In this document: one piece after another, positions 2,787-47,546 of the stretch
Layout: the number at the start of each line of letters is the position of its first letter
Position numbering within the stretch: position 1 is the first letter of the stretch
Assembly (NCBI RefSeq): GCF_023554555.1
Contig: NZ_JAMJWC010000001.1
Span: 2,232,001 to 2,296,000 of the forward strand
Reading direction: 5' to 3'
From: Sphingobacterium sp. lm-10
Lineage (GTDB): Bacteria; Bacteroidota; Bacteroidia; Sphingobacteriales; Sphingobacteriaceae
DNA length: 64,000 nt
Made by a program: the position numbers and the translations under genes
The notes under the pieces: generated by a model
Database searches by the model: none
What the model saw: only the letters and a program-made list of their open reading frames with translations
Told to the model about the DNA's origin: nothing

Positions 2787-2823
2787 TGTTCGTTTCCGAA
2801 CAATATTTGTTCACTACTGAACA
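2787..2823. promoter_or_regulatory. paired 16-bp palindromes, probable enhancer site for the TolC-like gene
   Basis: Two copies, TGTTCGTTTCCGAACA at 2787-2802 and TGTTCACTACTGAACA at 2808-2823, start 21 bp apart (two helical turns). Both fit TGTTCG-N4-CGAACA. The same paired design recurs at 2834, 36803 and 47440, so chance is very unlikely. The intergenic region 2693-3000 holds no gene; it is wholly regulatory. Confidence 0.85.
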
Positions 2824-2833
2824 ACAACACAAT

Positions 2834-2870
2834 TGTCCATCTTCGCACAATAAGTGTACGATATCGAACA
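2834..2870. promoter_or_regulatory. paired 16-bp palindromes, probable enhancer site for the HlyD-permease run
   Basis: TGTCCATCTTCGCACA (2834-2849, the weakest copy) and TGTACGATATCGAACA (2855-2870) start 21 bp apart. The second is centred 63 bp from the GG at 2925. With the pair at 2787 the layout is mirror-symmetric between the divergent genes. Confidence 0.82.
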
Positions 2871-2923
2871 GGAAAAGTCTCATATCACACTATAAAACAC
2901 ACCAAATCAGCTATTTAATTTTT

Positions 2924-2939
2924 TGGCACATCATTGTAT
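2924..2939 (+). promoter_or_regulatory. candidate sigma-54 promoter of the HlyD-permease run
   Basis: TGGCACATCATTGTAT has a perfect -24 TGGCAC. A TTGT follows as -12 element but one base closer than the textbook spacing. The lone ATPase promoter at 47531 has the same short spacing (TGGCACATCCTTGG), which argues that the pair of elements is real. The untranslated leader to the ATG at 3001 would be about 50 nt. Confidence 0.6.
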
Positions 2940-3000
2940 ATAAGTGAGTAGCGATCAATACGCAGACATTATATTATACATTTAAATTTTTGCTGTACTA

Positions 3001-4254
3001 ATGGACAGAGCAATTGAGAAAAAAAAGTGGGGAACTAAACGCATACTTACCATCGTTGGCGTGTTGGCTTTGGTTGGATTAATCGGCGCAAGCTACTACT
3101 ATACTAGTGGCAACAGCCGACTAAACGTGGATAGCGAGCGTATTAGCATCTTCGAGGTAAAAGAAGGGACTTTTCAGGAATTTATTCCGATCAACGGTAC
3201 GGTGCTCCCAATTAGCAGTATTTACTTAGATGCTTCTGTAGGTGGCCGTGTCGAAGAAAAGTTTGTAGAGGATGGAGCACATTTGAGAAAAGGCGATCCG
3301 ATTATGCGCCTTTCCAATACCGATTTGGAGTTAAGCTTGGTAAACCAGGAAACACAAGTGCTTAACTTATTAACACAAGCGCAGATCGCGCAGACTAACG
3401 CACAACAAGTCACCATTTCTAACAGAAACCAAATGGCCGATGTAGAACTGGCCGTAAAAGAAGCGGAGCGGTTGTACACGCTGAATAAGAAATTATATGA
3501 CGAGAAAGCCATCGGTTCCCAAGATTACCAGAAATCGGTAAATGACTACAATTACCAGAAACAACGTATTGACCTTACTCGGCAAATTCTTAAACAAGAT
3601 GAGGTATCCAATAACCAAAAGGCTGGCCAAGATCGTAAAACCTACGAACGTACTCAAAGTGCGCTGGAATTGATGCGGCAGAAAGTGGGCGACTTGATCG
3701 TACGATCGCCGGTTGACGGGCAATTGACCTCCTTCGATGCGGAGATCGGACAGAATAAAAATTCGGGCGAGCGGCTCGGTCAACTAGATGTGCTGACAGG
3801 CTTTAAGGTTCGTGCAGATATTGATGAGCATTATATCAACCGCATCTTCCCAGGCTTGGAAGGTCAATTCACGATCAGTGGCAAACCTTACCGTTTGGAG
3901 ATTAAGAAAGTATATACACAAGTGAAAGACGGGCGTTTTCAAGTAGATATGGAGTTTGTCGACGAGGTACCTGCCGGTATCCGTAGAGGGCAGACCTTAC
4001 AAACACGTCTGGCGCTTAGTGACGAAACCAAGGGCATTCTATTAGCTAAAGGCGGCTTCTATCAACAAACAGGTGGCAATTGGATCTTTAAGTTAGACAA
4101 GGATGGACAGACGGCATACAGAATGGATATACAATTAGGCCGACAAAACCCAGAATACTACGAAGTGATCGGTGGCCTGAAACCAGGAGACAAGGTGGTT
4201 GTATCCAGCTACGAGACATATGATAAAGTACAGGAACTAAATATTAAAAAATAG
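3001..4254 (+). CDS. HlyD/MacA-type periplasmic adaptor (membrane fusion protein)
   Basis: 417 residues. A basic cytoplasmic tip (KKKWGTKR) is followed by one TM helix (about 15-35). A split lipoyl domain has halves near 55-105 (VLPISSIYLDASVGGRVEE, DGAHLRKGDPIMRL) and 230-260 (DLIVRSPVDGQLTS). Between them is an alpha-hairpin (about 105-225, Gln/Asn-rich heptads) that should meet the TolC-like tunnel. C-terminal beta-barrel and membrane-proximal parts follow (GLKPGDKVVVSSYE). The family bridges inner-membrane transporter and outer membrane factor. It starts divergently from the TolC-like gene and ends 16 nt before permease P1, so it heads the permease operon. It is the only adaptor in the window and presumably serves several permeases. 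Confidence 0.93.
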   Translation: MDRAIEKKKWGTKRILTIVGVLALVGLIGASYYYTSGNSRLNVDSERISIFEVKEGTFQEFIPINGTVLPISSIYLDASVGGRVEEKFVEDGAHLRKGDPIMRLSNTDLELSLVNQETQVLNLLTQAQIAQTNAQQVTISNRNQMADVELAVKEAERLYTLNKKLYDEKAIGSQDYQKSVNDYNYQKQRIDLTRQILKQDEVSNNQKAGQDRKTYERTQSALELMRQKVGDLIVRSPVDGQLTSFDAEIGQNKNSGERLGQLDVLTGFKVRADIDEHYINRIFPGLEGQFTISGKPYRLEIKKVYTQVKDGRFQVDMEFVDEVPAGIRRGQTLQTRLALSDETKGILLAKGGFYQQTGGNWIFKLDKDGQTAYRMDIQLGRQNPEYYEVIGGLKPGDKVVVSSYETYDKVQELNIKK

Positions 4255-4270
4255 AACAGACCTCCCTATT

Positions 4271-6640
4271 ATGATCAGGAATTTTTTCAAATCGGCGTTT
4301 CGAAATCTTTGGAAAACCAAAGGCTACAGTTTTCTGAACATTTTCGGCCTGGCTGTAGGGGTCACAGCTGCAGCACTCATCTTTCTTTGGGTGGAAAGCC
4401 AAATAACTAAAGACGACCACTTTCCCGACAAGAAGGATATCTATGTGGTCAAATCTATTCAGAAGTATGATGGCGCGACCAACATCTTTGAGTCCACACC
4501 AGGCCCTTTTGCTCAAGCAGCTGCAGAAGATATTTCTGGCATTAAGCATATCGCGCGCACAGACTGGGGCAACTGGCTTTTATTTTCCGTAGATGATAAC
4601 GGAATCTCTCAATCGGGACATTATGCTGATCCTAGCCTATTGGACATTCTGTCCGTAGAATTTAAAGCTGGTGATAAACGCCAGGCGCTTTCTGAATTAA
4701 ATAACGTTGTGCTAAGCGAGTCGGCCGCCAAACGCTTATTCGGAAACGGGGCTGCTGTTGGCCAAACCGTTCGGGTAAATAATGAGGAGAGTTACACCGT
4801 CACCGGTGTGATAAAAGATCTTCCTAAAAATAGCAGCTTCAAATTTGATTGGCTGATTAATTTTAAAAAATTCGAGCTGGCCAATCCGTGGTTGGAAAAT
4901 TGGAATGCTAACGGCTTACGTACCATCGTTCAATTACAGCCTGAGGCCTCCTTGTCGGCGGTAAATGCCACGCTGTTAGATTTTGCAAAATTAAAAACCA
5001 GTGGCGAAACTGCTTATTATCAAAACTTCCTCTATCCTATGAGCCGCTGGACACTGTATAACTCCTTTGATAACGATGGCATGGAGCGCGAAGGCGCCAT
5101 TAAAAACATTCGCCTATTCAGCATCATCGCCTGGGTAGTGTTGCTGATAGCCTGTATTAACTTTATGAATCTGGCAACAGCACGTTCGGAGAAACGCGCC
5201 AAAGAAGTCGGCATGCGAAAAGTCGTAGGTGCCAAGAGACACACGCTGATTTTACAATTCTTAAGCGAATCTATGATCAGTGCATTTTTTGCCGTGCTAT
5301 TTGCGATCGGTTTGATTTACCTCGCCATAGGCCCTTTCAACACGATGCTAAAAACAGATTTATCAGTGCGGTTATTTGAACCTTTACATCTGTATTTTTT
5401 GCTAGGGATTGTGGTGATTTGCGGGCTGCTGGCCGGCAGCTACCCCGCTTTTTACTTGTCTTCGTTCAACCCGTTGAAAACACTGAAAGGGGCGAAGCAA
5501 AACGCAGGCACCGCTGGACTTATCCGCCGTGGATTAGTGATTGTACAATACACCGCCTCTATCCTACTCGTCATCTGCACGGTGATTATCTATCAGCAAA
5601 TACAGCATACCAAAAACCGGGATATAGGTTTCGAACGTAGCCAGGTCATTACGACGTCGCTTCAGGGCGATATGGCCAAAAAGATCCATCTTATCAAAGA
5701 TCAACTTATTGCAACGGGCGACATCGAAAGTGTGGGCGTGAGTGACAACAATATCATGAATATCGGATCCAATGCCAGCGGCTTTGATTGGGATGGCAAA
5801 GCGAAAGACAGCCAGGTACTTATTAGCATTTTAAATGGTGATGAGGGTTTGATTCCTAGCCTCAGCATGCAACTGCACGATGGGAGAAACTTTAAACCAC
5901 AACTTGTAGGCGACAGTACTGCGCTAATTATTAACGAAACACTGGCTCGAATGATTAAGCGGGATGGACTGGTCGCTGGGCAAACTTTGCATTGGAACAA
6001 TGAAGCACGTATGATTGTGGGTGTGGTTAAAGACTTCGTGTACAACGATGTATTTTCCAGTAGTCCCGAACCATTGATCATCAGTCCTACGGATTACGCT
6101 TACGGCCAGCTTTATATGAAAACAAAGGCAGGCATTGATTTACCTGAAATGTTAGTTCGAATGGAAAAGATCATAAAAGCGAATAACCCGGCTTATCCCG
6201 TTGAATATAAGTTCCTCGATGAGACCTTTGATCGCCAATTTAGCTCTGTGATGATGATCCAACATTTGGCGACCGTGTTTGCGGTACTGTCCATTATTAT
6301 TTCTTGTCTGGGCTTATTTGGACTAGCTTCTTTTTCCGCGCAGCAACGCGCCAAAGAAATCAGCATCCGTAAAGTATTAGGGGCATCCATCACGCGTTTG
6401 GTCAGCATGCTGAATCGCGAATTTGTCGTTTTAGTCGGATTATCTTGTCTGATTGCCTTTCCGTTGGGCTGGTGGTTTATGCACGATTGGCTGGGCAACT
6501 ACAAATACCGGATTGACATAAGCTGGATCGTATTTGCCTTGGCAGCGGGATTAGCGATCGCAATTGCCATATTAACGGTAAGCACACAAGCATTACGTGC
6601 GGCGACAGCCAACCCAACGAAAACCCTGAAAAATGAATAA
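4271..6640 (+). CDS. FtsX/MacB-type ABC permease P1
   Basis: 789 residues with the layout shared by all 14 permeases here: TM1 (about 20-42); MacB-type periplasmic domain; FtsX block with TM2-4 (about 280-395); TM5 (about 420-442); a second periplasmic domain; FtsX block with TM6-8 (about 665-780). The polypeptide thus resembles two MacB-like halves fused. Cytoplasmic coupling motifs are RAKEVGMRKVVGA (near 303) and RAKEISIRKVLGA (near 693). MacB-type permeases do not form a channel; they pass ATPase motion to the periplasmic adaptor. The end is ANPTKTLKNE, unlike the NPVxSLRDE of most later copies. The second periplasmic domain groups with P6 and P11 (QGD...LIKDQL, NPAYPVEYKF). It lies 16 nt after the adaptor gene and is the only permease before the ATPase, so these form the core exporter. 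Confidence 0.93.
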   Translation: MIRNFFKSAFRNLWKTKGYSFLNIFGLAVGVTAAALIFLWVESQITKDDHFPDKKDIYVVKSIQKYDGATNIFESTPGPFAQAAAEDISGIKHIARTDWGNWLLFSVDDNGISQSGHYADPSLLDILSVEFKAGDKRQALSELNNVVLSESAAKRLFGNGAAVGQTVRVNNEESYTVTGVIKDLPKNSSFKFDWLINFKKFELANPWLENWNANGLRTIVQLQPEASLSAVNATLLDFAKLKTSGETAYYQNFLYPMSRWTLYNSFDNDGMEREGAIKNIRLFSIIAWVVLLIACINFMNLATARSEKRAKEVGMRKVVGAKRHTLILQFLSESMISAFFAVLFAIGLIYLAIGPFNTMLKTDLSVRLFEPLHLYFLLGIVVICGLLAGSYPAFYLSSFNPLKTLKGAKQNAGTAGLIRRGLVIVQYTASILLVICTVIIYQQIQHTKNRDIGFERSQVITTSLQGDMAKKIHLIKDQLIATGDIESVGVSDNNIMNIGSNASGFDWDGKAKDSQVLISILNGDEGLIPSLSMQLHDGRNFKPQLVGDSTALIINETLARMIKRDGLVAGQTLHWNNEARMIVGVVKDFVYNDVFSSSPEPLIISPTDYAYGQLYMKTKAGIDLPEMLVRMEKIIKANNPAYPVEYKFLDETFDRQFSSVMMIQHLATVFAVLSIIISCLGLFGLASFSAQQRAKEISIRKVLGASITRLVSMLNREFVVLVGLSCLIAFPLGWWFMHDWLGNYKYRIDISWIVFALAAGLAIAIAILTVSTQALRAATANPTKTLKNE

Positions 6641-6696
6641 AGAAGAGGTGCAATCATCGAAGTGCGATATGAGACATAAGAGCAAGAAAAAGACAA

Positions 6697-6746
6697 GTCA
6701 TATGGAATATTCATGGATGTTTGTGTTGGAAGAACATGAATATTTT
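6697..6746 (+). repeat. 50-bp palindromic intergenic repeat, copy 1
   Basis: Arms AATATTCATG (6706-6715) and CATGAATATT (6735-6744) form a perfect 10-bp inverted repeat with a 19-nt loop. The 50-bp block matches the reverse complement of 39394-39443 at 42 of 50 positions, including the loop. It sits in the P1-ATPase gap (6641-6836). The rest of that gap is AT-rich with repeated CTAAATACT words. Confidence 0.75.
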
Positions 6747-6836
6747 ATATCTAAATACTTATATCGCAATCCGCACATCTAAATACTAACATCTAAATAC
6801 TAAATACTCATATCTCAATACTAACTCTGAAAAAAA

Positions 6837-7514
6837 ATGATTAAAATAACTAACCTCCAAAAATTTTACCGTACCGAAGAGGTAGAAACGGTAGCCTTGA
6901 ATGACTTGAATATCCATGTGCAAGAAGGAGAGTTTGTCGCTGTGATGGGCCCGTCGGGATGTGGCAAGTCCACCCTGTTAAATATTATCGGATTATTAGA
7001 TGATTTGGACGAAGGCAGCTATGTATTTAACAGTGTTGAAGTAGCCAAATTCAATGAGCGCAAGCGTTCAGATTTACGCAAGCACAACATCGGCTTTGTG
7101 TTTCAAAGTTTCAACCTGATTGATGAACTGACGGTATTTGAGAACGTGGAGCTGCCTTTGATCTACACCAATGTACCAGCCGCAGAACGCAAAAAACGGG
7201 TGGAAGAAGTATTGGAGAAAGTGCAGATCATGCATCGCCGGAATCACTTCCCGCAACAGCTATCTGGCGGTCAGCAACAGCGTGTGGCCGTAGCACGCGC
7301 CGTGGTAAATAATCCTAAACTGATTCTGGCCGATGAGCCTACAGGTAACCTGGATTCCTCGAACGGTAATGAGGTGATGAACCTGCTAACGGAATTGAAC
7401 GAGGCAGGCACAACGATCGTGATGGTAACACACAGTGAGCATGATGCTAAATTCTCTGATCGCGTGATCCGCATGTTGGACGGACAGGTGATTATGGAAA
7501 CAACTACCGTTTAA
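6837..7514 (+). CDS. MacB/LolD-type ABC transporter ATPase (with the permease array)
   Basis: 225 residues, a typical stand-alone nucleotide-binding subunit. Walker A is GPSGCGKST (about 38-46), Q-loop FVFQSFNL, signature LSGGQQQRVAVARA (about 142), Walker B LILADEPTGNLD (about 160), and switch His in MVTHSEHD. All catalytic residues are present. It powers the permeases from the cytoplasmic face. It lies 196 nt after P1 and 25 nt before P2. It is the only ATPase in the 29 kb run, so up to eleven permeases may share it. The gap before it holds a 50-bp palindromic repeat that could set its expression apart from P1. Confidence 0.95.
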   Translation: MIKITNLQKFYRTEEVETVALNDLNIHVQEGEFVAVMGPSGCGKSTLLNIIGLLDDLDEGSYVFNSVEVAKFNERKRSDLRKHNIGFVFQSFNLIDELTVFENVELPLIYTNVPAAERKKRVEEVLEKVQIMHRRNHFPQQLSGGQQQRVAVARAVVNNPKLILADEPTGNLDSSNGNEVMNLLTELNEAGTTIVMVTHSEHDAKFSDRVIRMLDGQVIMETTTV

Positions 7515-7539
7515 TTATAAGGGTTTAAAAAGAACCGCG

Positions 7540-9933: not shown

Positions 9934-10078
9934 AGATCTCGAGAAATAGTATTTAGTATGGAGATATTAGTATTAAGATATAAGTATTTAGAATACCAAA
10001 GGAGGAAAAAAGGATAGTAGCCGTATTAACGCTACCGACCTTCTGAATTTTATGAACCTTAAAAATGGAAAGCTTATT

Positions 10079-12448: not shown

Positions 12449-12489
12449 AAAAGAATCAACCCCAATTTCAGAACTAAACACCTAAAGTC

Positions 12490-14895: not shown

Positions 14896-14918
14896 CCTAT
14901 TATTTTAGAAAAAAAATT

Positions 14919-33482: not shown

Positions 33483-33496
33483 CCCCTTATTTATAT

Positions 33497-35214: not shown

Positions 35215-35237
35215 GTGCACCTTACTTTATGAAGGTA

Positions 35238-35275: not shown

Positions 35276-35380
35276 GTGTTGTTAAAATGCTACTCAACAT
35301 TCAACTACCGGAGTTATTTAAAAAAATCGTCTACATACATCATATTATGACAATTGCCTGTAAAATATAAAAGCAATTTA

Positions 35381-35412
35381 ATTGCATTTGATGGTTATTC
35401 AGAATATCTTTG
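35381..35412 (+). promoter_or_regulatory. Bacteroidota-type promoter of the oxidoreductase gene
   Basis: TATCTTTG at 35405-35412 fits the -7 consensus TAnnTTTG. ATTG at 35381-35384 lies 20 nt upstream in the place of the -33 TTTG. The leader to the ATG at 35446 would be about 27 nt. Confidence 0.6.
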
Positions 35413-35445
35413 ATGCACTACGAAAAACGTTAAAATTCAACAATT

Positions 35446-36360: not shown

Positions 36361-36378
36361 CCTACGGACTCCATGAAG

Positions 36379-36747: not shown

Positions 36748-36802
36748 ATATTTTTTAGGTATTGACTATAAGATACAGAATTATTGGCAGAGATCAAACA
36801 GC

Positions 36803-36840
36803 TGTTCGGTATCGAACGAAAATTTGTCCGGTATCGAACA
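36803..36840. promoter_or_regulatory. paired 16-bp palindromes upstream of permease P12
   Basis: TGTTCGGTATCGAACG (36803-36818) and TGTCCGGTATCGAACA (36825-36840) start 22 bp apart. They are the best-matching copies of the TGTTCG-N4-CGAACA motif, with the same GGTATC core. The nearer site is centred 64 bp from the GG at 36896. Confidence 0.87.
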
Positions 36841-36894
36841 CTATTCAACCCCATAAAATTACACAAAAAACTAATTATCAACTATTTAAATATT

Positions 36895-36910
36895 AGGTGT
36901 CAAATTTGGT
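36895..36910 (+). promoter_or_regulatory. candidate sigma-54 promoter of the P12-P14 group
   Basis: AGGTGTCAAATTTGGT keeps the essential GG of the -24 element and has TTGG at the -12 place with textbook spacing, but the rest of the -24 box is poor. It was chosen because its distance from the palindrome pair equals that at the other three promoters. A better-looking TTGGTACG at 36906 lies about 11 bp too far. Confidence 0.45.
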
Positions 36911-36985
36911 ACGACCTTATCGGCGTAGCGCTGCACGAGAAGTGTAGTTAGCAACGTCCACTTAAAAACCAGAAAATAACGACGC

Positions 36986-39382
36986 ATGACATCGCATATC
37001 AAAACAGCCTGGCGCAATATCATCAACAATAAACTCTTCAGTCTATTAAATATAGTTGGTTTGGCTACGGCTTTTGCAGTTACGATTCTACTCCTGTCCT
37101 TTGTTTGGAAAGAAACAAGCTACGATAAGTTTCACAACAATTGGCGACATATCTATCGCGTAAATACAGAATTCGATTCAGAGTACAACAATATCAAAAC
37201 GCCTCAATTACCCAACTCTGTTGCGCCCGCCATGCTGGCCGAAGTACCGGGAGTAAAAAATACCACACGCTTAGTAAAACGCGATTTCGGCACGATTGCT
37301 TCTATTCGTGTAGGCGACCAGACCTTTAGTGAGTCTGCGTTGTATTTAGCGGACTCTAGCCTATTCCAGATTTTCGACTTCCATTTCATTGAGGGCGATG
37401 CACGCCAGGTGTTTGATAATCCAAAAAATATAGTAATTTCTGCATCCACGCGTGATAAAATTTTTGGAGAACGTTTGGTAGTAGATGAACTATTGACTAT
37501 CAATAATCAAGATACCATGCGTGTGGCAGGCGTATTTCAGGATCTTCCAGAAAATAGCACCTTGAACTGCAATATGGTATACAACATTATGGATAGCTGG
37601 ATGGGCCAAAACGTGTACTGGTCTAATGCCAGCTATGACACGTACTGCTTGTTGGACCCTACTGCAGATCCAAGCCTAGTGGAGCAGCAAACCGATGCCT
37701 TACTGGATAAATACATGTCAGACAATCGTTTTCTAAAGCGGCTCTTCTTACAGCCATTGGCAAATGTGCATCTGTATTCCACTGATTTACAAGATTGGGA
37801 CTCCGTACGCTCTGGAAATCATGTTACCATAAAGCTAGCAGTACTTCTCGCTGCAATTACATTACTTATTGCCTGCATCAATTATATGAATTTGGCTACA
37901 GCGCGTTCTTCCAAAAATGCGAAAGATGTCGGTGTATCTAAAGTGTTGGGTGCTACGGGCAAACAGGTCGTTGCGAGATTCTATACTGAAGCAGCCTTGG
38001 TAACGCTATTGGCTATTGTACTGGGGTACGGAATGGCGCTATTGTTGGCTCCTTATTTCGAAAAAATTACGCAAACAAGCTGGAGTTATCAGGCATTATG
38101 GAATCCACAATTATTGGGTATTACCTTCGCACTTTGGATAGGCATCACACTATTGGCAGGTAGTTACCCTGCTTATTATATGAATAGGATTAGTCCTCTC
38201 ATCTTGATGAACAAAAGCGCCCTAAAGAATGTATTTGCTAATCGCATGCGCCGTATTTTGGTAGTGTGCCAATTCACGGCTTCTATTATTCTATTAGCTT
38301 CCATTATTATCATAGCACAGCAAATGCGCTATGTTCAACAGAAAGACCTGGGTTACAAGCCTGAAGGGATGGTTGCTGTCTCCATCAATTCTGTCTCTTC
38401 CAAAGCACAATTCCAATCTTTAAGCGACGGGCTTCGTAGTCTGGCTTCTACGACTGATTTGGTAGCGGCACAAAGCTTGATGGGTATGCGCGAGAGTGGA
38501 AAAAATGTCTCCAAAAGAGTTACCGATAAAAACGGCTTGGATGTATTGACAAATAGTGTCAATGGACCGATAGCAGGAACCTTCCAATTAGCCCTTTTAG
38601 CAGGAAAAGATTTGCCAGCAAATTTATCGCCGACTGATACCAACTGCTATGTAATAATTAATGAGACCGTATCAAAATATTTAGGCTACGCCAATCCCGA
38701 AGATGCGATCGGCCAGCCAATCATTACAGAAATGCGGCCTAATAGTTCCATCATATCTGGTGTATCGACAGACTTCAACTATACTTCGCTAAAAGAATCA
38801 GTTGGTGGCTACCTTTATTATCGTATGAATCGGCCATCAGAGTCCCAACAATATCTATTCGTTCGTTTTCAGGCAGCACAGGTCAGTACTTTTTTGGATC
38901 AGGTGCAAGAGGTGTTCAAGCAGCATGTACCAGATGGCGCATTTGTGTATGAATTTACAGATGAACATGTAGCTCGCATGTATAAAGATGAAACACGCAC
39001 GGCCAATATCACAGGGCTGTTCTCCGGACTAGCTATTTTGATCTCCTGCCTAGGCTTATTTGGCCTGGCCAGTTCTACCGCCGAGCAGCGTATCAAGGAA
39101 ATTGGAATCCGTAAGGTATTGGGTTCCAGCGTAAGTAGCGTCGTACTCTTACTCTCAAAAGATTTCATTAAATTGGTGTGTTTATCAATTGTCATCGCCA
39201 CACCAATATCCTGGTGGGCGATGCACAATTGGTTATCCGATTTTTCGTACCGTATCCAATTAGAATGGTGGGTATTCGGCGTAGCAGGACTCGCTGCTTT
39301 GCTAATAGCATTATTAACCATCAGTGGGCAGGCACTTCGTGCAGCCCTCACGAATCCAATCCAAAGCTTACGTAATGAGTAG
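36986..39382 (+). CDS. FtsX/MacB-type ABC permease P12 (heads the second permease group)
   Basis: 798 residues. N-terminus TSHIKTAWRNIINNKLFSLLN, TM1 about 20-42. The first coupling motif is unusual, NAKDVGVSKVLGA (near 309; Ser for Arg); the second is standard, RIKEIGIRKVLGS (near 702). First periplasmic domain: RVAGVFQDLPENSTLNCN, with a Cys. Second: CYVIINETVSKYLG and VSTDFNYTSLKESVG. C-terminus TNPIQSLRNE differs from the first array's NPVxSLRDE. It carries its own palindrome pair, so it is a separately started unit of the same regulon. Confidence 0.92.
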   Translation: MTSHIKTAWRNIINNKLFSLLNIVGLATAFAVTILLLSFVWKETSYDKFHNNWRHIYRVNTEFDSEYNNIKTPQLPNSVAPAMLAEVPGVKNTTRLVKRDFGTIASIRVGDQTFSESALYLADSSLFQIFDFHFIEGDARQVFDNPKNIVISASTRDKIFGERLVVDELLTINNQDTMRVAGVFQDLPENSTLNCNMVYNIMDSWMGQNVYWSNASYDTYCLLDPTADPSLVEQQTDALLDKYMSDNRFLKRLFLQPLANVHLYSTDLQDWDSVRSGNHVTIKLAVLLAAITLLIACINYMNLATARSSKNAKDVGVSKVLGATGKQVVARFYTEAALVTLLAIVLGYGMALLLAPYFEKITQTSWSYQALWNPQLLGITFALWIGITLLAGSYPAYYMNRISPLILMNKSALKNVFANRMRRILVVCQFTASIILLASIIIIAQQMRYVQQKDLGYKPEGMVAVSINSVSSKAQFQSLSDGLRSLASTTDLVAAQSLMGMRESGKNVSKRVTDKNGLDVLTNSVNGPIAGTFQLALLAGKDLPANLSPTDTNCYVIINETVSKYLGYANPEDAIGQPIITEMRPNSSIISGVSTDFNYTSLKESVGGYLYYRMNRPSESQQYLFVRFQAAQVSTFLDQVQEVFKQHVPDGAFVYEFTDEHVARMYKDETRTANITGLFSGLAILISCLGLFGLASSTAEQRIKEIGIRKVLGSSVSSVVLLLSKDFIKLVCLSIVIATPISWWAMHNWLSDFSYRIQLEWWVFGVAGLAALLIALLTISGQALRAALTNPIQSLRNE

Positions 39383-39393
39383 GCACATCAAGT

Positions 39394-39443
39394 AAAATAT
39401 TCACGTTCTGCAAGCACAAACACCGATGAATATTCTATATGGC
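39394..39443 (-). repeat. 50-bp palindromic intergenic repeat, copy 2 (inverted)
   Basis: Reverse complement matches 6697-6746 at 42 of 50 positions. Arms AATATTCA / TGAATATT. It begins 12 nt after the P12 stop. As with copy 1, it follows the first permease of an operon and precedes a non-permease gene. Confidence 0.75.
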
Positions 39444-39521
39444 CTCTGAAAGACAAATAAAACACATATAACTTATCAGTATAAATAACAACTATTTTAT
39501 TCAAACAAACACCACCAAATT

Positions 39522-40493
39522 ATGCGTTACCTTATCTTAACCACGCTTTTCTTTGTTAGTCTTTTCGGATTACAAGCACAACAAAAAAACCTGTCTTACA
39601 CGCAGAAGAAATTTTCTGCATCAAGCATTAAATCACTTGACGCCAGCACGGTTGGCGGCTCCATCCGTGTAGAAGGCACCAGTGGAGAAGCTTCTGTAGA
39701 TGTTATCTTGAATCCCAACGGCAATAAGCTGCTTTCTGGAAACGGAGATCTAAAATCTTTATTTGAAAAAGAATACGACCTGGAGTTGGGCATGAAAGGC
39801 GGCACATTAGTCGCGAAGGTGAAACGCAAATCTGGCCGTAGTGGCAACAACCCGCTATCAGTATCGTACATAATCCATGTACCTACCAAAGTGACTTCAC
39901 AGGTAAAAACCGCTGGCGGTAGCATTAGCATGAGCAACCTAACCGGTGACCAGAATTTCGCTACTTCCGGAGGTAGCTTAACGTTGACCAGTCTGAATGG
40001 TAACATAAACGGCAGAACATCTGGTGGAAGCATTACTGCAAAATCTTCAAAAGGCACTATTCAAATTTCTACTTCAGGAGGATCGATCACGATGGAGCAA
40101 TTGAACGGTACTATCGTAGCAAAAACCTCTGGCGGATCAATTACCGGAAAGCAAGTCGTAGGAAAGCTAGACGCTTCTACTTCCGGAGGATCCATCAAAT
40201 TAGAAAATTCAGAAGGAGATATTCAGGCGGCTACATCGGGTGGCAGCGTTACCGCATCACTTACTAAAATAACGAATCCGGTGAGATTAAGCACGAGCGC
40301 AGGAAGCATTAACCTGAGTTTGCCAAAAGGCGGCTATGACTTGGACTTGAGCGGCAACAAAGTGAATATCGACAACTTGCAAAACTTTTCAGGAAGTACT
40401 AAAAGAGATAAAGTAAAAGGCAGTGTAAATGGAGGTGGACACAGTGTGACGGCGACTACTTCTGCCGGATCAGTGAACCTAAACTGGCTATAA
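39522..40493 (+). CDS. DUF4097-type secreted beta-solenoid protein
   Basis: 323 residues. Signal peptide (YLILTTLFFVSLFGLQAQQ) and about 55 residues of lead-in precede a right-handed beta-solenoid built of ~19-22-residue repeats with TSGGSIT/TAGGSIS turns. At least eight copies are visible between about 45 and 260 (TVGGSIRV, TAGGSISM, TSGGSLTL, TSGGSITA, TSGGSITM, TSGGSITG, TSGGSIKL, TSGGSVTA, TSAGSINL). It is exported to the periplasm or surface; such proteins are annotated as DUF4097 or adhesin-like without proven role. It lies only 14 nt before P13, so it is co-transcribed with the permeases and may be a partner or cargo. Confidence 0.88.
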   Translation: MRYLILTTLFFVSLFGLQAQQKNLSYTQKKFSASSIKSLDASTVGGSIRVEGTSGEASVDVILNPNGNKLLSGNGDLKSLFEKEYDLELGMKGGTLVAKVKRKSGRSGNNPLSVSYIIHVPTKVTSQVKTAGGSISMSNLTGDQNFATSGGSLTLTSLNGNINGRTSGGSITAKSSKGTIQISTSGGSITMEQLNGTIVAKTSGGSITGKQVVGKLDASTSGGSIKLENSEGDIQAATSGGSVTASLTKITNPVRLSTSAGSINLSLPKGGYDLDLSGNKVNIDNLQNFSGSTKRDKVKGSVNGGGHSVTATTSAGSVNLNWL

Positions 40494-40507
40494 AAACCCG
40501 TATCAAC

Positions 40508-42919
40508 ATGCAAAATTACCTCAAAACAGCCTGGCGAAACATTCGGCGCCAAAAAAGCTTTGCTGCGATCCATGTACTTGGCATGGGAGTAGCTATTGGA
40601 GTGGCTACCCTATTGTTTTTAACGGCTATGTTTGAGTTGTCTTTCGACGATCAGCATCAAGATCGTGATCGCATCGGTATGCTTTACTTCCAGTCAAATC
40701 CTGTAGAGGGTTTGACCCACGCTGATCCCATGCCTACGCCATTGGCTCCAACATTAAAGGCGGAGATCACAGGTTTGGAAGGCGTATCCCGCTGTTACAA
40801 TGGTGGGCTTCTCTTTCGGAATGGAGATAAGCAACTAAGCTCTGATAGCAAATTTGTTGACCCCGACTTTCTAACCATCTTCGACTTCGCCTTGGAGTCA
40901 GGCTCAGACAATGCACTGAAGGATTTGGATAACATCGTAATCACTGATAAGCTGGCCAACTCGTTATTCGGCAAAAGTAATGTGGTAGGGCAATCCGTTG
41001 AGGTATACCTCAACGGCGCCTGGACCACCAAGATCATATCTGCCTTACTAGCGGACATCCCAAAGAATTCTAGCCTACAATTTTCTTCTTTAATCCGTTT
41101 TGAACACAAGCCAAACTACATAAATAACATAGAACATTGGAATCATAATGATCACAAAGTGTTTGTGAAGACGGGTTTGCCAATAAAAGAAACCGCTGTA
41201 TTTGGTAGCCAAGCCAGACCATTTATCGACAGCCATTTTAAAACACAAACAGATGAATTGAAAAGAGACGGTGCCACCGCGGATGTAAACGGAGATTATA
41301 TCACGTTGCAAGCCCTTCCTTTTAGTGATTATCACTTGAATGATCTTGGTTTAGGGGACGCTGGATCGACCACTTTCCCTTGGATGTTGATCGGAATTGC
41401 CGGATTGATGGTTTTCATCGCCTGTTCCAATTTTATCAACTTATCTTTAGCCAATTCCATCACTCGTAAACGCGAAGTAGGCACTAGAAAAACGCTCGGT
41501 AGTACTAATGGACAGTTAATTACGCAATTTTGGGTGGAATCTCTTTTGATAACTGCTGCTGCGCTACTCTTTGGGTTGCTACTGGCCTGGGTAATACTAC
41601 CCCAATACAATGCGAACATGGGATACAGCCTGAAGATGGCAGAATTGTTTAATTCCGTCAACCTCACTTTATTTACGTTGACCTTTCTATTGATTGCATT
41701 GATTGCCGGAGGCTATCCAGCCTGGAAAAATGCACAATCTAATGTGATCGAGGCTTTGAAAGGAACCTCATCGGGCAGCACCAAGCATGGCCTGCGAAAC
41801 ACCCTAACCGTAGTACAATTTGCCATTGCCACGTTTATGATCATTGGTACGATTGTAATCAGCACACAGTTGAGCTACCTATCCAATCGTTCGCTTGGAT
41901 ACAATAAAACAGAAGTGATCAGCATACCTATAGGTAGTGGCATCGACCATCAACAAGCGCTGGAAAGGATGCGAGCCGACTTAGCAAAAGTTCCTTTTGT
42001 AACTCATGTCACAGGTACAGATATCAACATGGGGCGTGGCCGAGATGGTAGTACTTCCAATTCAAAGATTGGGTTCGACCACGAAGGCCGCGGAGTTACT
42101 ACGCATTTTCTGCGGGTCGATTACGACTATTTGGATGCGCTAGATATCGATTTATTGGCTGGACGAGATTTTTCACGCACGTTTGGAACGGATACGAGTG
42201 CTATCATTATCAATGAACAAATGGCGGCATCACTAGGTGGAATAAATGATATTATTGGGAAAAAGATCGACATTGACGGCACACCAACCATAATCGGTGT
42301 AGTCAAAGATTTTAACTTTAAAGACCTCAGACAACGTATCGAGCCATTAACTATGTCCATAAATCCAAGTACTGGTTTTGATATAGAATACATCTTCGTG
42401 CGCGTGCAAACCGACAATTTGGCGGTGGCTTTGCGTGAGGTAGAACAAGTTTGGAAAAACATCAATCCGAAGGCGTCCAGTGAAGCTTCCTATCTGGATG
42501 AAAACACTGAAAATTTATACAAAAGAGATCGTCGCTTTGCTCATATTATCGTAGGCGGAGCAGTCATTGCCATCGTAATATCGTGCATGGGATTATTTGC
42601 GATCGCACTTTTAAGTATCAATCAACGGGTGAAAGAGATCGGTATCCGGAAGGTATTGGGTTCTAGTGTATCTGGCATTGTGCTATTGTTATCAAAAGAT
42701 TTTGTCCTATTGGTATTAGTGGCCTTACTAATCGCATCTCCACTGGCTTGGTGGGGTATGCATCGCTGGTTGGATGGATTTGCCTACCGAATAGATATTT
42801 CCTGGTGGATCTTTGCGCTTGCAGGCATTATTTCTTTGGTTATTGCACTCGTAACGGTTAGTGGACAAGCCATTCGCGCGGGTCTGCAAAATCCAGTGAA
42901 GAGTTTGAGAGATGAGTAA
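40508..42919 (+). CDS. FtsX/MacB-type ABC permease P13
   Basis: 803 residues. N-terminus QNYLKTAWRNIRRQKSFAAIHVLG. The first coupling motif is diverged, RKREVGTRKTLGS (near 320); the second is standard, RVKEIGIRKVLGS (near 707). First periplasmic domain has KIISALLADIPKNSSLQFS. Second: AIIINEQMAASLGG and VVKDFNFKDLRQRIEP. C-terminus QNPVKSLRDE. It starts 14 nt after the DUF4097 gene; a 120-nt gap with a GC-rich hairpin separates it from P14. Confidence 0.92.
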   Translation: MQNYLKTAWRNIRRQKSFAAIHVLGMGVAIGVATLLFLTAMFELSFDDQHQDRDRIGMLYFQSNPVEGLTHADPMPTPLAPTLKAEITGLEGVSRCYNGGLLFRNGDKQLSSDSKFVDPDFLTIFDFALESGSDNALKDLDNIVITDKLANSLFGKSNVVGQSVEVYLNGAWTTKIISALLADIPKNSSLQFSSLIRFEHKPNYINNIEHWNHNDHKVFVKTGLPIKETAVFGSQARPFIDSHFKTQTDELKRDGATADVNGDYITLQALPFSDYHLNDLGLGDAGSTTFPWMLIGIAGLMVFIACSNFINLSLANSITRKREVGTRKTLGSTNGQLITQFWVESLLITAAALLFGLLLAWVILPQYNANMGYSLKMAELFNSVNLTLFTLTFLLIALIAGGYPAWKNAQSNVIEALKGTSSGSTKHGLRNTLTVVQFAIATFMIIGTIVISTQLSYLSNRSLGYNKTEVISIPIGSGIDHQQALERMRADLAKVPFVTHVTGTDINMGRGRDGSTSNSKIGFDHEGRGVTTHFLRVDYDYLDALDIDLLAGRDFSRTFGTDTSAIIINEQMAASLGGINDIIGKKIDIDGTPTIIGVVKDFNFKDLRQRIEPLTMSINPSTGFDIEYIFVRVQTDNLAVALREVEQVWKNINPKASSEASYLDENTENLYKRDRRFAHIIVGGAVIAIVISCMGLFAIALLSINQRVKEIGIRKVLGSSVSGIVLLLSKDFVLLVLVALLIASPLAWWGMHRWLDGFAYRIDISWWIFALAGIISLVIALVTVSGQAIRAGLQNPVKSLRDE

Positions 42920-42948
42920 AGAAGTGAGAAATAGGAAGCAAGAAATCA

Positions 42949-42973
42949 TCCGCAGGTATGCTTATCCTGCGGA
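42949..42973. terminator. GC-rich hairpin in the P13-P14 gap
   Basis: TCCGCAGG (42949-42956) / CCTGCGGA (42966-42973) with a 9-nt loop. No T tract follows, so it may act as an mRNA-stability or attenuation hairpin rather than a terminator. AT-rich CTAAATA-like words fill the rest of the gap. Confidence 0.45.
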
Positions 42974-43039
42974 ATCGCAACACACACCTCATGCATAAAT
43001 ACTAGCTACTAAATAGTCAAATCGAAATACGTACTACCT

Positions 43040-45418
43040 ATGTGGAATAACTACCTCAAAATCATGTATCGGAACCTTTGGCGGTACAAAGCTTATTCTT
43101 TGCTCAACATTCTGGGGCTTTCGATCGGGTTAGCTTCCACTTTTATGATTCTATTGTGGGTAAACCACGAGCGCAGTTACGACCAATTCCACGAAAGCGC
43201 CGTACAAACCTACCGATTGACCAGTGGTGTGTCAAAGGATTTTGTGGCCGCAACTACTCCTCCACCATTAGGTGAGGACTTGGCGACTAAAATTCCTGGC
43301 ATAAAAGATTACCTACGCCTCACGCATAGAGTAAGTCATTTATTCGAAAACGAAGGAAAAAAGTTTGAAGAGAAAGAAGGTTTTTATGCCGATTCCAACT
43401 TTCTCTCGTTCTTCTCATTTACCGTGCTGAAGGGCGATCCCGCTACCGCATTGCAAAATCCGGACGCCATCCTGCTCACGGAAAAGATGGCCACCAAATA
43501 CTTCGGGAGTACAGATGTAGTGGGTAAAACATTGACCCGGGATAATAAAACAACTTTTAAAGTATCGGCAGTATTAGCCGACCTTCCAAGTAACTCTCAC
43601 TTACAATTTGACTACATTCTACCGATTTCGGCTTTGAACGAGGGTGACTGGAAATTTCCGAGTCAAAATTGGAGTAATTTCATTTACTACACCTATTTGC
43701 AACTGGATGAACATCTTACGCCTTCGGAAGATGCTCTATCCAGTTTAACGGCAGACATTACCCGTCAATACAGAACGCATGTGGATGGCGCCATATCAAA
43801 AACTATTTTCACACTCCAACCATTGTCAGCTATTCATTTGCATTCTCAAAACTTTCAGGTAGATGTAGCCGTACATGGACATTATCAGTATGTCAGCACG
43901 CTATCCTTGGTGGGTCTGTTTATTCTGATTGTGGCCTGCATCAATTTCATGAACCTATCTACCGCACGTTCCGCGAGGCGTGCCAGAGAGGTAGGTCTTC
44001 GGAAAATAGTAGGCGCAGAGCGGCGGCAATTGATCACACAATTTTTAGGAGAATCCTTATTTATCACTACCCTTTCCGTGATCATCGCCCTGGCACTAGT
44101 CATGTTATTATTGCCGGTATTCGAGGTCTTGGTAGGCAAAGATTTATCGATCTCGCTATTCAGTTCAGAAATAGCGTGGTACTTACTAGCTATTGTTATT
44201 TTTACCGGTCTATTTGCGGGCAGCTATCCGGCAATCTACCTATCTGGCTTTCAACCACTCAACATTTTAAAAGGAATTCTAACGGCTCAACAGAGCGGTC
44301 ATCGCCTTTTTAGAAATGGTTTGGTCGTATTACAGTTTGTGGTGTCTATCTTTTTACTCGTGGGCACTCTCGTTATTTACAAACAGTTGGAGTTCATTAA
44401 AAACCGAGACAACGGTTTTGATCAATCCAATCTTCTGTACGTCAGCATGAGTGGCGAGATTTGGAGAAAACAAGAAACTTGGAAGAATGCTTTAGCAGCA
44501 AATCCTTTAACCAGTAATTTCACGATCACCGATGCACTGCCCTCGAACTTGGTCAGTGGAACAATAGATTACTGGTGGGAAGGCAAAGATCCCAATTCTG
44601 AATTAATAGTGCCAATGATGGATGTCGACGGAGATTTTATTACCGTTTTTGGAATGGAACTGTTGGCAGGACGTACTTTCTCTAAGCTTTTTACGGATTC
44701 TAGCAGCTATATGATCAATGAAAGCATGGCTGTAGTAATGGGATTAACGCCCGAGGAAGCTATCGGAAGGCCTTTTACAGTGTGGAGCAAAAAAGGAAAT
44801 ATTGTAGGTGTCGTGAAGGACTTCAACTTCAAACCGGTTAGTCAATCGGTTGGGCCACTGATGTTGCAATACAACGAGTGGGGTGGGATGGCGGTAATAC
44901 GTACACAGCCCGGGAAGCTAGAAGCCACTTTGGCTGCTGTCAAAGCACTGAATACCGAATTAAATCCAGACTACCCTTTTAATTATGGCTTTTTCGATGA
45001 AGAACTGTCTCGGCTGTACGAGAGCGAACAACGTCTAAGTAAGTTATTTGCGGTATTTGCAGCACTTGGTATATTCATTTCTTGTTTAGGTTTGTACGGT
45101 TTGTCGGCATTCATGGCCGAACAACGTTTTAAAGAAATTGGTATCCGGAAAGTGTTAGGTTCGTCTATTGTAGGTATCATTACACTTTTAAGCACAAACT
45201 TCATTGGACTCTTGGCGTTAGCCATCCTTATTGCGATTCCAATCGCTTGGTATGGCGCTGTGCAATGGCTGAATGGCTTTGCTTATCGAATTGATATGAG
45301 TATTTGGATTGCGGCCTTGGCATCTGCCATCGCTCTGACCATTGCATTATTAACGATAGGATACGAATCGGTAAAAGCGGCTTTGATGAATCCAACGCGT
45401 AGTCTTCGTGATGATTAA
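43040..45418 (+). CDS. FtsX/MacB-type ABC permease P14
   Basis: 792 residues. Coupling motifs RAREVGLRKIVGA (near 313) and RFKEIGIRKVLGS (near 696). First periplasmic domain: FKVSAVLADLPSNSHLQFD. Second: SYMINESMAVVMG and VVKDFNFKPVSQSVGP; the segment NPDYPFNYGFFDEELSRLYESE links it loosely to the P1/P6/P11 subfamily. C-terminus MNPTRSLRDD is the most diverged of the set. It is last of the second group; palindromic repeats begin three bases after its stop and could end transcription. Confidence 0.92.
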   Translation: MWNNYLKIMYRNLWRYKAYSLLNILGLSIGLASTFMILLWVNHERSYDQFHESAVQTYRLTSGVSKDFVAATTPPPLGEDLATKIPGIKDYLRLTHRVSHLFENEGKKFEEKEGFYADSNFLSFFSFTVLKGDPATALQNPDAILLTEKMATKYFGSTDVVGKTLTRDNKTTFKVSAVLADLPSNSHLQFDYILPISALNEGDWKFPSQNWSNFIYYTYLQLDEHLTPSEDALSSLTADITRQYRTHVDGAISKTIFTLQPLSAIHLHSQNFQVDVAVHGHYQYVSTLSLVGLFILIVACINFMNLSTARSARRAREVGLRKIVGAERRQLITQFLGESLFITTLSVIIALALVMLLLPVFEVLVGKDLSISLFSSEIAWYLLAIVIFTGLFAGSYPAIYLSGFQPLNILKGILTAQQSGHRLFRNGLVVLQFVVSIFLLVGTLVIYKQLEFIKNRDNGFDQSNLLYVSMSGEIWRKQETWKNALAANPLTSNFTITDALPSNLVSGTIDYWWEGKDPNSELIVPMMDVDGDFITVFGMELLAGRTFSKLFTDSSSYMINESMAVVMGLTPEEAIGRPFTVWSKKGNIVGVVKDFNFKPVSQSVGPLMLQYNEWGGMAVIRTQPGKLEATLAAVKALNTELNPDYPFNYGFFDEELSRLYESEQRLSKLFAVFAALGIFISCLGLYGLSAFMAEQRFKEIGIRKVLGSSIVGIITLLSTNFIGLLALAILIAIPIAWYGAVQWLNGFAYRIDMSIWIAALASAIALTIALLTIGYESVKAALMNPTRSLRDD

Positions 45419-45420
45419 AA

Positions 45421-46180
45421 GATTGCCGCACCTTCGTCCCTCCGGTTCGCAATGACGAAGTCTGGAGGTTTAGTACTCACCGTCATTGCGAGGAGGTACG
45501 ACGTGGCAATCTTTACAACCTGATGGATCGCCCGACCTACGTCATTGGTGATGGATTGTCACACCTTCGTACCCCAGGGTCGCAAGGATGAAGCCTGGAG
45601 GTTTAATACTCATCGTCATTGCGAGGAGGTACGACGCGGCAATCTTTACAACCTGATAGATTAATGCACTTACTATCTTTGATGATGGATTGCCGCACCT
45701 TCGAAGAGAACTGATCTGAAAAAAGAATAGAAATTAATATCTTTAATCATGGAACGAGGCGGCTGCGTTTACATCATAACTAATTATACCCACACGACAT
45801 TATACACAGGGGTGACTTCCGATTTGCAAGGCAGAATATATGCGCACATCCACGGCTTATTTCCTAATTCATTTTCTAAAAAGTATAAGCTCTATAAACT
45901 GGTATATTACAACTTCTTCTCCACTATTGAAGATGCGATTGCAGAGGAAAAAAGAATTAAAGCAGGTAGTAGAGCAAAAAAAGAATCGTTAATAAATGAG
46001 GTTAATCCAAATTGGTCCGACTTATATGAGACGGAAGTAAAACACTGGTAAGGATAAGTTAGAATATGCCCGTCATTGCGAGGAGGTACGACGTGGCAAT
46101 CCTTACAACCTGATGGATCATGCACTTACTATCTTCGGTGATGGATTGCCGCACCTTCGTCTCTCAGGTTCGCAATGACG
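45421..46180. repeat. tandem ~133-bp palindromic repeat array, interrupted by a GIY-YIG gene
   Basis: Each unit has arm a (GATTGCC...CAATGACG, ~37 bp), a ~24-bp spacer (TCTGGAGGTTTAGTACT), arm b (CGTCATTGCG...GGCAATC, 31 bp) and a ~42-bp linker (TTACAACCTGAT...). Arms a are at 45421, 45554, 45688 (only the first 15 bp) and 46144; arms b at 45481, 45614 and 46071. Unit starts are 133 and 134 bp apart. In the third unit the normal spacer is replaced by about 370 bp that hold the GIY-YIG gene. Arms a and b are inverted relative to each other and can fold into long hairpins. This accounts for the gene-poor gap 45419-45748; in 46052-46390 it covers up to 46180, and the rest shows nothing clear. 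Confidence 0.85.
45749..46051 (+). CDS. small GIY-YIG nuclease-domain protein
   Basis: 100 residues, the usual size of stand-alone GIY-YIG proteins (UPF0213-like). The catalytic motif appears as VYIITN...LYTGVTSDLQGRIYAH: YIITN stands in the GIY place, YTGVT in the YIG place, with the conserved Arg in LQGRIYAH. The metal-binding Glu is probably in EDAIAEEKRIKAGSRAKKESLI. These domains cut DNA or remain of unknown role when small. It lies inside one unit of a palindromic repeat array, which suggests an element that moves or multiplies the repeats. It is lower in GC than its flanks and unrelated to neighbouring permeases. Confidence 0.85.
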   Translation: MERGGCVYIITNYTHTTLYTGVTSDLQGRIYAHIHGLFPNSFSKKYKLYKLVYYNFFSTIEDAIAEEKRIKAGSRAKKESLINEVNPNWSDLYETEVKHW

Positions 46181-46390
46181 AAACCTGGAGGTTTAGTACT
46201 GCACTATCATGCTTCGCGTTTGCTATGGAGGCTCATCAAGTCCATTTCAAGTGCGGCCCGGCAATCGCCGAAGGAAAACAATCTATATAATCCATCTCCA
46301 TTGCATGCAGATGCGATACATCAATCCAAAAAAAAAGCGTTATATTAGAAGACAATTACCTATATGATATAAACGCTAAATCGAAAAAGC

Positions 46391-47350
46391 ATGAATAAAT
46401 TAAGTTCTCTAATGGCGGCTGCTTTGCTCAGTTGCAGCTCATTTGCTCTGGCACAACAAAACCCTGTTTTTCCGGGCAATTATGCCGATCCAGAGGGAAT
46501 TGTATACAACAACACGTACTGGATTTTCCCAACCTATTCTGCTCCCTATGAGGAGCAAATATTCTTCGACGCATTCTCTTCGAAAGATTTAGTAAACTGG
46601 GAAAAACATTCCCGTATTCTGGACAATAATGAGGTAAAGTGGGCAAACAAAGCCATGTGGGCGCCAGCCGTACTGGAGAAAGACGGTAAATACTATATTT
46701 TCTTTGGCGCAAACGACGTACACCCTGGTGAAGTGGGTGGTATCGGCGTGGCTGTAGCAGATAAACCCGAAGGGCCCTACAAGGATTTGATCGGCAAACC
46801 ATTAATCCAAGAAAATGTAAACGGTGCACAGCCCATCGATCAATTTGTATTCAAAGACAAAGACGGTACTTACTATATGTACTACGGAGGATGGAAACAT
46901 TGTAATATGGTGAAGTTAAAGCCTGACTTTACCGGACTACTACCTTTCGATGACGGAACCTACTATAAAGAAGTCACCCCGGAGAACTATGTAGAAGGTC
47001 CATTCATGTTTATAAAAGACGGAAAATACTACTTCATGTGGTCTGAAGGCGGTTGGACAGGTCCAGATTATAAAGTTGCTTATGCTATTGCTGATTCACC
47101 ATTTGGGCCATTCAAACGTGTGAACACCATCTTAGAACAGGATCCAGAAATTGCGACTGGCGCAGGCCATCACTCGGTCATCAAAGTGCCGAATGAAGAA
47201 AAATATTATATCGTATACCACCGTCGTCCATTGGGAAAAACCAGTGCTCATGACCGCGTAACCTGCGTAGAAGAATTACATTTTGATGAACAAGGCTTGA
47301 TTAAGCCGGTCAAGATGACCTTCGAAGGAGTTAGTCACCCCCTGAAATAG
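46391..47350 (+). CDS. GH43-family glycoside hydrolase, secreted
   Basis: 319 residues. The signal peptide (LSSLMAAALLSCSSFALAQQ) is followed by a five-bladed propeller domain. The general base Asp is expected in NYADPEGIVY (near 34). A middle Asp probably lies in PIDQFVFKDKDGTYYMYYGG and the general acid Glu in ENYVEGPFMF (near 205). The family holds arabinofuranosidases, xylosidases and galactosidases; the exact sugar cannot be read. It stands alone, after the repeat array, with no SusC/SusD pair in the window. Confidence 0.9.
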   Translation: MNKLSSLMAAALLSCSSFALAQQNPVFPGNYADPEGIVYNNTYWIFPTYSAPYEEQIFFDAFSSKDLVNWEKHSRILDNNEVKWANKAMWAPAVLEKDGKYYIFFGANDVHPGEVGGIGVAVADKPEGPYKDLIGKPLIQENVNGAQPIDQFVFKDKDGTYYMYYGGWKHCNMVKLKPDFTGLLPFDDGTYYKEVTPENYVEGPFMFIKDGKYYFMWSEGGWTGPDYKVAYAIADSPFGPFKRVNTILEQDPEIATGAGHHSVIKVPNEEKYYIVYHRRPLGKTSAHDRVTCVEELHFDEQGLIKPVKMTFEGVSHPLK

Positions 47351-47439
47351 GAGCTTCGCACGCTTTCGACTATGCGGTAACTATTTTGGATATATCGCTT
47401 ATCGTTTAGAAGAATACAAGGCACGCTAAAGTCGTTAGC

Positions 47440-47477
47440 TGTTCGGAATTGGACAATTTACTGTTCAATTCCGAACA
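47440..47477. promoter_or_regulatory. paired 16-bp palindromes upstream of the lone ATPase
   Basis: TGTTCGGAATTGGACA (47440-47455) and TGTTCAATTCCGAACA (47462-47477) start 22 bp apart. The nearer site is centred 63 bp from the GG at 47532. This ties the solitary ATPase gene to the permease regulon. Confidence 0.87.
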
Positions 47478-47530
47478 TTAACCACATCACACCCTTCTTC
47501 TTTCCGCTGTATTACAACGAGTTAAGACAC

Positions 47531-47546
47531 TGGCACATCCTTGGAA
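47531..47546 (+). promoter_or_regulatory. candidate sigma-54 promoter of the lone ATPase
   Basis: TGGCACATCCTTGGAA: perfect -24 TGGCAC; the TTGG -12 element is one base closer than textbook, as at the HlyD promoter (shared TGGCACATC). The leader to the ATG at 47575 is about 20 nt. Confidence 0.6.

Follow-up and report, generated by a model that had tools for sequence, protein, structure and literature searches.

A predicted sigma-54 regulon of duplicated MacB/FtsX permeases in Sphingobacterium sp. lm-10, marked by a paired-palindrome promoter cassette

NtrC, ZraR and GlrR/QseF are activators with a receiver, an AAA+ domain and a Fis-type helix-turn-helix, which act from pairs of palindromic enhancers some 100 bp before a sigma-54 promoter, and several NtrC-family regulons use IHF help. 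BceRS-BceAB-type systems rely on intramembrane sensing, with a kinase encoded beside FtsX-family ABC transporters. We describe here a promoter cassette and the genes behind it in a window of 64,000 nucleotides (C1:2232001-2296000) from the genome of Sphingobacterium sp. lm-10 (G000; 3.84 Mb, five contigs). Our reading, to which we assign a probability of roughly 85% and which is drawn from comparison of sequences, is that all the long duplicated MacB/FtsX permeases of this genome, together with TolC, an HlyD-type adaptor and ABC ATPases, form one regulon of the adjacent two-component sigma-54 activator. A 2025 survey found predicted sigma-54 promoters to be enriched before COG0577 (FtsX-like/antimicrobial-peptide ABC permease) genes in Bacteroidia, and its authors described this as the first evidence of a sigma-54/COG0577 link (PMC12316311). 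The permease superfamily, the phylum and the prediction of sigma-54 promoters are common to that survey and this locus. However, the survey reports an enrichment at class level; the terms UAS and upstream activat- are absent from it, and in the accessible parts of its text these permeases are given neither an activator nor an enhancer site, a geometry or autoregulation.

The cassette resembles those of NtrC, ZraR and GlrR/QseF in activator architecture, paired palindromic upstream sites and a sigma-54-type promoter. Unlike in the NtrC-family regulons, the distances between palindrome pair, linker dyad and -24 element are near-fixed across some 100 promoters, and a family of paralogous permeases makes up the main targets. 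The present system has an HlyD-type adaptor, TolC, a separate MacB-like ATPase and an FtsX/MacB_PCD permease in common with MacAB-TolC, DarBCD (darobactin export) and ADOP, but there is no ATPase-permease fusion here; HlyD, ATPase B and P2 miss by far the NCBIfam cut-offs for DarBCD (DarB 111/700, DarC 166/450, DarD 246/375), and P2 misses that for the duplicated ADOP permeases (TIGR03434, 287/622 bits). As in BceRS-BceAB, a kinase whose two hydrophobic segments are joined by a very short loop lies beside FtsX-family ABC transporters, whereas the activator is a sigma-54 AAA+ protein and not an OmpR-type regulator. Every part is of a kind familiar from enhancer-dependent sigma-54 regulons. The particular regulon appears to be new: the literature searched yielded no description of its activator, enhancer cassette or dyad, or of the regulon as a whole.

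An earlier, sequence-only reading of the window had reported eight TGTTCG-N4-CGAACA-like 16-mers in four pairs, with start-to-start spacings of 21, 21, 22 and 22 bp, before TolC, the HlyD-P1-P11 run, P12-P14 and a lone ATPase. All four pairs (A to D, Table 1) were recovered with these spacings and in these places. Summed over both copies they carry 2, 4, 2 and 3 mismatches, and 100 second-order Markov sequences of window length gave 0.00 chance pairs at ≤4 mismatches and 0.01 at ≤5 (spacing 20-23). That the window holds no further pair stands for spacings of 20-23 and ≤5 mismatches; one looser pair with a spacing of 24 (44991/45015, 4 mismatches) lies inside the coding region of permease P14. 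Single palindromes with ≤3 mismatches number 34 in the window against 24.6 expected, a count reached by 3 of 100 shuffles. Lone matches therefore say little, and the signal is the combination of pair, spacing and fixed distance to the -24 element.

The whole genome was then scanned for TGTNCR-N4-YGNACR occurring twice with 5 or 6 bases between (spacing 21 or 22) and ≤2 mismatches. Five pairs were found, all of them intergenic and all before transporter genes; at these spacings no pair falls within a gene or ahead of genes of another kind. The reversed pattern gave no pairs in the genome. The fifth pair (C1:1435982-1436018), found by pattern alone, precedes by about 154 bp a duplicated MacB/FtsX permease that is 48% identical to P11, and has TGGCAGATAGCTTGAA at 62.5 bp. 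The genome encodes 15 long MacB_PCD frames (788-835 amino acids), a count also returned by a search with P11. Every one of these 15 lies behind a pair: 11 in the HlyD run, 3 after pair C and 1 after the fifth pair. The remaining three MacB_PCD frames, of 408-481 amino acids, are elsewhere and not behind pairs. The genes of the export system thus fall into five separate groups, each behind a cassette.

Downstream of each pair lies a sigma-54-type element. The distances of 63, 63, 64 and 63 bp given in the sequence-only reading are those of Table 1 (proximal centre to first G) rounded up, and TGGCAC is indeed present in three of the four window promoters, that of P12 reading AGGTGT. A GG is found at 62.5-63.5 bp in all five promoters of the genome, as TGGCA in four. 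Pooled over 115 distinct pair sites, TGGC[AG] occurs at 60-66 bp in 100; other distances mostly have 0-4, with smaller peaks at 66.5 (8), 87.5 (12) and 109.5 (7). By itself, TGGCAC-N5-TTGCW is at chance level in the window (38 vs 33.6 expected). A stricter genome scan (one exact palindrome with TGGCA 52-56 bases on) returned only promoters A, B and D and one match in the reversed control; promoter C and the fifth promoter fall outside this form. The genome has a single rpoN (PF04552, 8.1e-57). Counts from a sigma-70-like consensus scan were near chance.

The cassette has a third fixed part, missed in the earlier reading, which is an IHF-type dyad between the palindromes and the -24 element. 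Aligned on TGGCA, 93 representative linkers (<75% identical, drawn from 161 distinct) share YAA-N4-TTGAW-W-WTCAR-N4-TTR, with its centre 20 bp before the -24 GG. The right half of this dyad corresponds to WATCAANNNNTTR, which we take to be the IHF consensus. At one identical offset, promoters A, B, C, D and the fifth have 1, 1, 0, 2 and 1 mismatches to it. The dyad was first noticed in these sites, and the pool tested later contains some of them; in that pool the mean mismatch is 2.9 at the dyad offset against 4.2-6.2 at the remaining offsets. Matches at the dyad offset number 41/93 at ≤2 mismatches and 23/93 at ≤1 (70/161 and 43/161 among distinct linkers), while shuffled linkers gave at most 9/93 at any offset (200 shuffles). 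On the reverse strand the consensus peaks at -31, with 42/93 at ≤2 mismatches. The dyad might instead be bound by another sequence-specific dimeric regulator and not by an HU/IHF-type bender. Its symmetry would suit such a protein, since classical IHF sites are asymmetric; even so, both halves fit the assumed IHF consensus, and IHF acts between enhancer and -24 at known sigma-54 promoters. We consider a second regulator possible but the less probable of the two.

By activator identity, the nearest named relatives are Sphingobacterium corticibacter (92%) and Sphingobacterium sp. CFCC 11742 (91%). The comparison across relatives that had been proposed for the motif was made in 60 genomes of the genus, a tool-drawn subset of a larger group, with thresholds of E≤1e-150 for the activator and E≤1e-60 for P11-type permeases. 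Pairs are present in 49 of the 60, the permeases in the same 49 and an intact activator in 48, so that pairs agree with permeases in 60/60 genomes and with the intact activator in 59/60. Eleven genomes lack pairs, activator and permeases alike (G002, G003, G011, G019, G020, G046, G048, G051, G061, G067 and G074). The sole mismatch is G054, where the activator is present in two frames. HlyD and ATPase A of G054 are likewise each in two frames (L230, 4909-9899). This suggests assembly errors rather than decay. A search with the activator fetched 80 loci, 20 from Sphingobacterium and 60 from outside the genus; divergent TolC/HlyD pairs were found in all 20 Sphingobacterium loci, each with TGGCA at 61.5-63.5 bp.

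The same genomes bear on whether the cassette could be bound by another sigma-54 activator. The genome of strain lm-10 has three strong Sigma54_activat genes, two besides the one at this locus, and either could in principle be the binder. Five of the genus genomes without a close orthologue nevertheless keep activators that are 35-36% identical, yet have no pairs, so the pairs follow the close orthologue only; in other genera, moreover, the pair beside the activator likewise precedes HlyD. Recognition by a different activator is therefore highly improbable, and we prefer the adjacent activator as the predicted partner of the palindromes.

Across the genus, the reversed pattern had no match in 58 of the 60 genomes, with 13 matches in G006 and 1 in G010; the 13 in G006 are perhaps a repeat family. 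Spacers of 8-16 bases between copies yielded 22 forward matches in 16/60 genomes, against 202 in 49/60 for spacers of 5-6 bases. In eighteen of the 22 the spacer is 14 bases long, and two (G000, G053) bridge pairs A and B. The pairs with 14-base spacers look like a second class (L232 1525-1570 and 2931-2976, L233 3029-3074, L234 3050-3095, L235 3089-3135, L236 3046-3090, L237 3076-3121). About 75 nt past the pair in L232-L237 there is a recurring TGGTAT-rich element with TTTGGC at its end; a long FtsX-like permease frame comes next in L235 and L237. The second class looks like a paralogous regulon.

Forty regions were fetched by place from the listed genus sites not beside the activator, and these hold 45 pairs. 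Among these 45, the targets are permeases for 23 (in L217 a fragment only), Lumazine_bd_2-like proteins for 18, ATPase B for one and TolC/HlyD for one, the last in L220. The two others precede a beta-lactamase-family serine hydrolase (L195) and an unknown gene (L207, 10139). A GG-N7..9-[TA]TG element lies at 60.5-66.5 bp in 44 of the 45; the exception is L208 (site 2012), where TGGCAAACCGATTGC stands at 53.5 bp, closer by roughly one helical turn. The Lumazine_bd_2-like proteins are small and secreted, with several copies in some genomes (L191, L200-L205, L207, L221, L223, L226-L229), and are possible substrates or effectors of the export system.

Outside the genus, for example in Mucilaginibacter and Chitinophagaceae, activator and HlyD-ATPase are divergently oriented. 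Of the 60 non-genus loci, 38 carry a variant pair (TGTATC...CGNACA, mostly 17 bases) followed 53-55 nt on by TGG[CT][AG]; with the sequences reversed, none of the 60 did. The exact Sphingobacterium half-site had few matches there, namely at loci of Albibacterium and Parabacteroides, plus chance-like pairs in L083. In a Parabacteroides locus (L087), TGGCACAAGACTTGCC lies 63.5 bp from the pair. Recognition helices are TRAALYRR in Sphingobacterium orthologues, TRTALYRR among those with the 17-base site and TRGALYRR in those of Parabacteroides. That the helix varies roughly in step with the half-site is only suggestive.

Several observations weigh against the proposed regulon. The genus genomes share descent, so the 60 are not independent. 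Assignment of the palindromes to the activator rests on neighbourhood, co-occurrence and a trend in one recognition helix, and this trend has exceptions in which no site was found (TRAALYRR in Prevotellaceae L093 and L096; TRTALYRR in Parapedobacter and Pontibacter). The pattern used outside the genus was built after reading 16 of the 60 intergenic regions on which it was tested, and a pattern search did not find the variant pair in 22 of the 60, including all six Parapedobacter. In some relatives the cassette also serves non-transporter genes. In the non-target direction, the 45 pairs of the regions fetched by place have 4 -24-like elements at the set distance. More than half of the representative linkers (52/93) are >2 mismatches from the IHF consensus, and promoter C has a weak, odd -24. 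At -12, canonical TTGC is absent from all five promoters here (the dinucleotide is GG, GT, GG, GG and GA), the C is not conserved across the 93 representative linkers, and the full TTGC is present in only 2 of the 22 permease promoters of the fetched regions (L196, L210). TTG or ATG is mostly kept; it is the C that is gone, in 5/5 own and 20/22 permease promoters.

This lack of TTGC would favour a view in which the palindromes are operators of a conventional regulator, either a repressor or a sigma-A-dependent activator, and TGGCA belongs to a promoter of a different type; the housekeeping promoter of Bacteroidota is itself unusual. Against it, the pairs track a sigma-54 activator gene across the 60 genomes, GG lies about 8 nt from TTG at most sites fetched by place, and canonical TGGCA-N6-TTGC is found at the same distance in 18/18 Lumazine_bd_2-like targets of relatives. 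Moreover, sites about 87 and 108 bp upstream of the predicted start are in the position of an enhancer and not of an operator. We regard conventional operators as improbable. The sigma-54 regulon claimed in the sequence-only reading is thus supported by the scan and by co-occurrence, and was incomplete in that it lacked the fifth site, the IHF-type dyad and the non-transporter targets of relatives.

The regulator had been placed at 1-1281 of the window. It is encoded there, although on the minus strand and with 78 further bases past the left window edge. Its domains are PF00158 (1.8e-61), PF00072 (4e-21) and PF02954 (3.8e-15), and it has GAFTDA, not GAFTGA, as do 58/58 orthologues in which the loop was recovered from the 80 loci. 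TolC is followed after 97 bases by the activator and after another 18 by a histidine kinase of 439 amino acids, and the interval from TolC to the activator showed nothing like a terminator in a consensus scan. The N-terminus of the kinase has two hydrophobic segments with few residues between. Judged by eye, 15 of 16 listed kinases (47 were recovered from orthologue loci) start in this way, that of L089 showing one segment, perhaps through a wrong start. Input from the membrane interior or from the transporter is plausible on this topology. The genes from HlyD to P11 are separated by gaps of 16-196 nt and, given their direction and these gaps, are probably one transcript from promoter B. Genes between P11 and P12 (AraC, DUF2911, DJ-1, oxidoreductase) look unrelated. 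Downstream of ATPase B, the minus-strand genes at 49325-54700 (two adjacent GH92 and a BSP-type peptidase) are apparently outside the regulon.

Table 1. Cassette elements and associated genes, in window coordinates.
Feature	Position	Strand	Remarks
Distal palindrome, pair A (facing TolC)	2808..2823	-	
Proximal palindrome, pair A (facing TolC)	2787..2802	-	
IHF-type element A	2740..2752	-	AATCAGCGGGTTG, 1 mismatch to WATCAANNNNTTR
-24/-12-like element A	2718..2733	-	TGGCACTTGCTATGGA; proximal palindrome 62.5 bp away
Distal palindrome, pair B (facing HlyD)	2834..2849	+	
Proximal palindrome, pair B (facing HlyD)	2855..2870	+	
IHF-type element B	2905..2917	+	AATCAGCTATTTA, 1 mismatch to WATCAANNNNTTR
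-24/-12-like element B	2924..2939	+	TGGCACATCATTGTAT; proximal palindrome 62.5 bp away
Distal palindrome, pair C (before P12)	36803..36818	+	
Proximal palindrome, pair C (before P12)	36825..36840	+	
IHF-type element C	36876..36888	+	TATCAACTATTTA, 0 mismatches to WATCAANNNNTTR
-24/-12-like element C	36895..36911	+	AGGTGTCAAATTTGGTA; weak -24; proximal palindrome 63.5 bp away
Distal palindrome, pair D (before ATPase B)	47440..47455	+	
Proximal palindrome, pair D (before ATPase B)	47462..47477	+	
IHF-type element D	47512..47524	+	TTACAACGAGTTA, 2 mismatches to WATCAANNNNTTR
-24/-12-like element D	47531..47546	+	TGGCACATCCTTGGAA; proximal palindrome 62.5 bp away
Sigma-54 activator, NtrC-type response regulator (receiver, AAA+ with GAFTDA loop, Fis-type helix-turn-helix)	1..1281	-	Cut by window edge; full length 452 amino acids
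TolC-family outer membrane protein (OEP domains)	1379..2692	-	Upstream of activator and kinase, same strand
HlyD-type adaptor, permease P1, ATPase A (6837-7514), permeases P2-P11	3001..32051	+	Co-directional run
Permeases P12-P14 and DUF4097 gene (39522-40493)	36986..45418	+	
Lone ABC ATPase B	47575..48240	+	

A mechanism can be proposed from these parts. The membrane kinase would phosphorylate the activator, two dimers of which would occupy the palindromes, two helical turns apart and about 87 and 108 bp from the predicted start. At the dyad the DNA would be bent by an HU/IHF-type protein, allowing the AAA+ ring to reach sigma-54 polymerase positioned on -24/-12. Because the activator and kinase genes also lie in line with the TolC promoter, autoactivation of regulator and kinase is likely; induction would then be self-reinforcing. 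The outputs, TolC, HlyD, 15 permeases and 2 ATPases, would make up export pumps with a common adaptor and outer-membrane channel, plausibly directed against antimicrobial peptides or envelope damage. A wider view would be of a Bacteroidota-wide, sigma-54-built analogue of the Bce module, in which a loop-less kinase reads the working state of the permease and a rigid, portable cassette recruits each permease duplicate into a self-amplifying regulon; this is speculative and, in our estimate, unlikely.

For the link between sigma-54 and FtsX-type permeases in Bacteroidia that the survey predicts without assigning it, the locus would supply a concrete activator, DNA site and regulon (PMC12316311). 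The cassette is searchable, and orphan transporter genes across Bacteroidota may be assigned with it to one system. About 100 natural promoters with near-fixed enhancer-promoter geometry would be material for studies of DNA looping, and the regulon offers a test of the signal to which the kinase responds.

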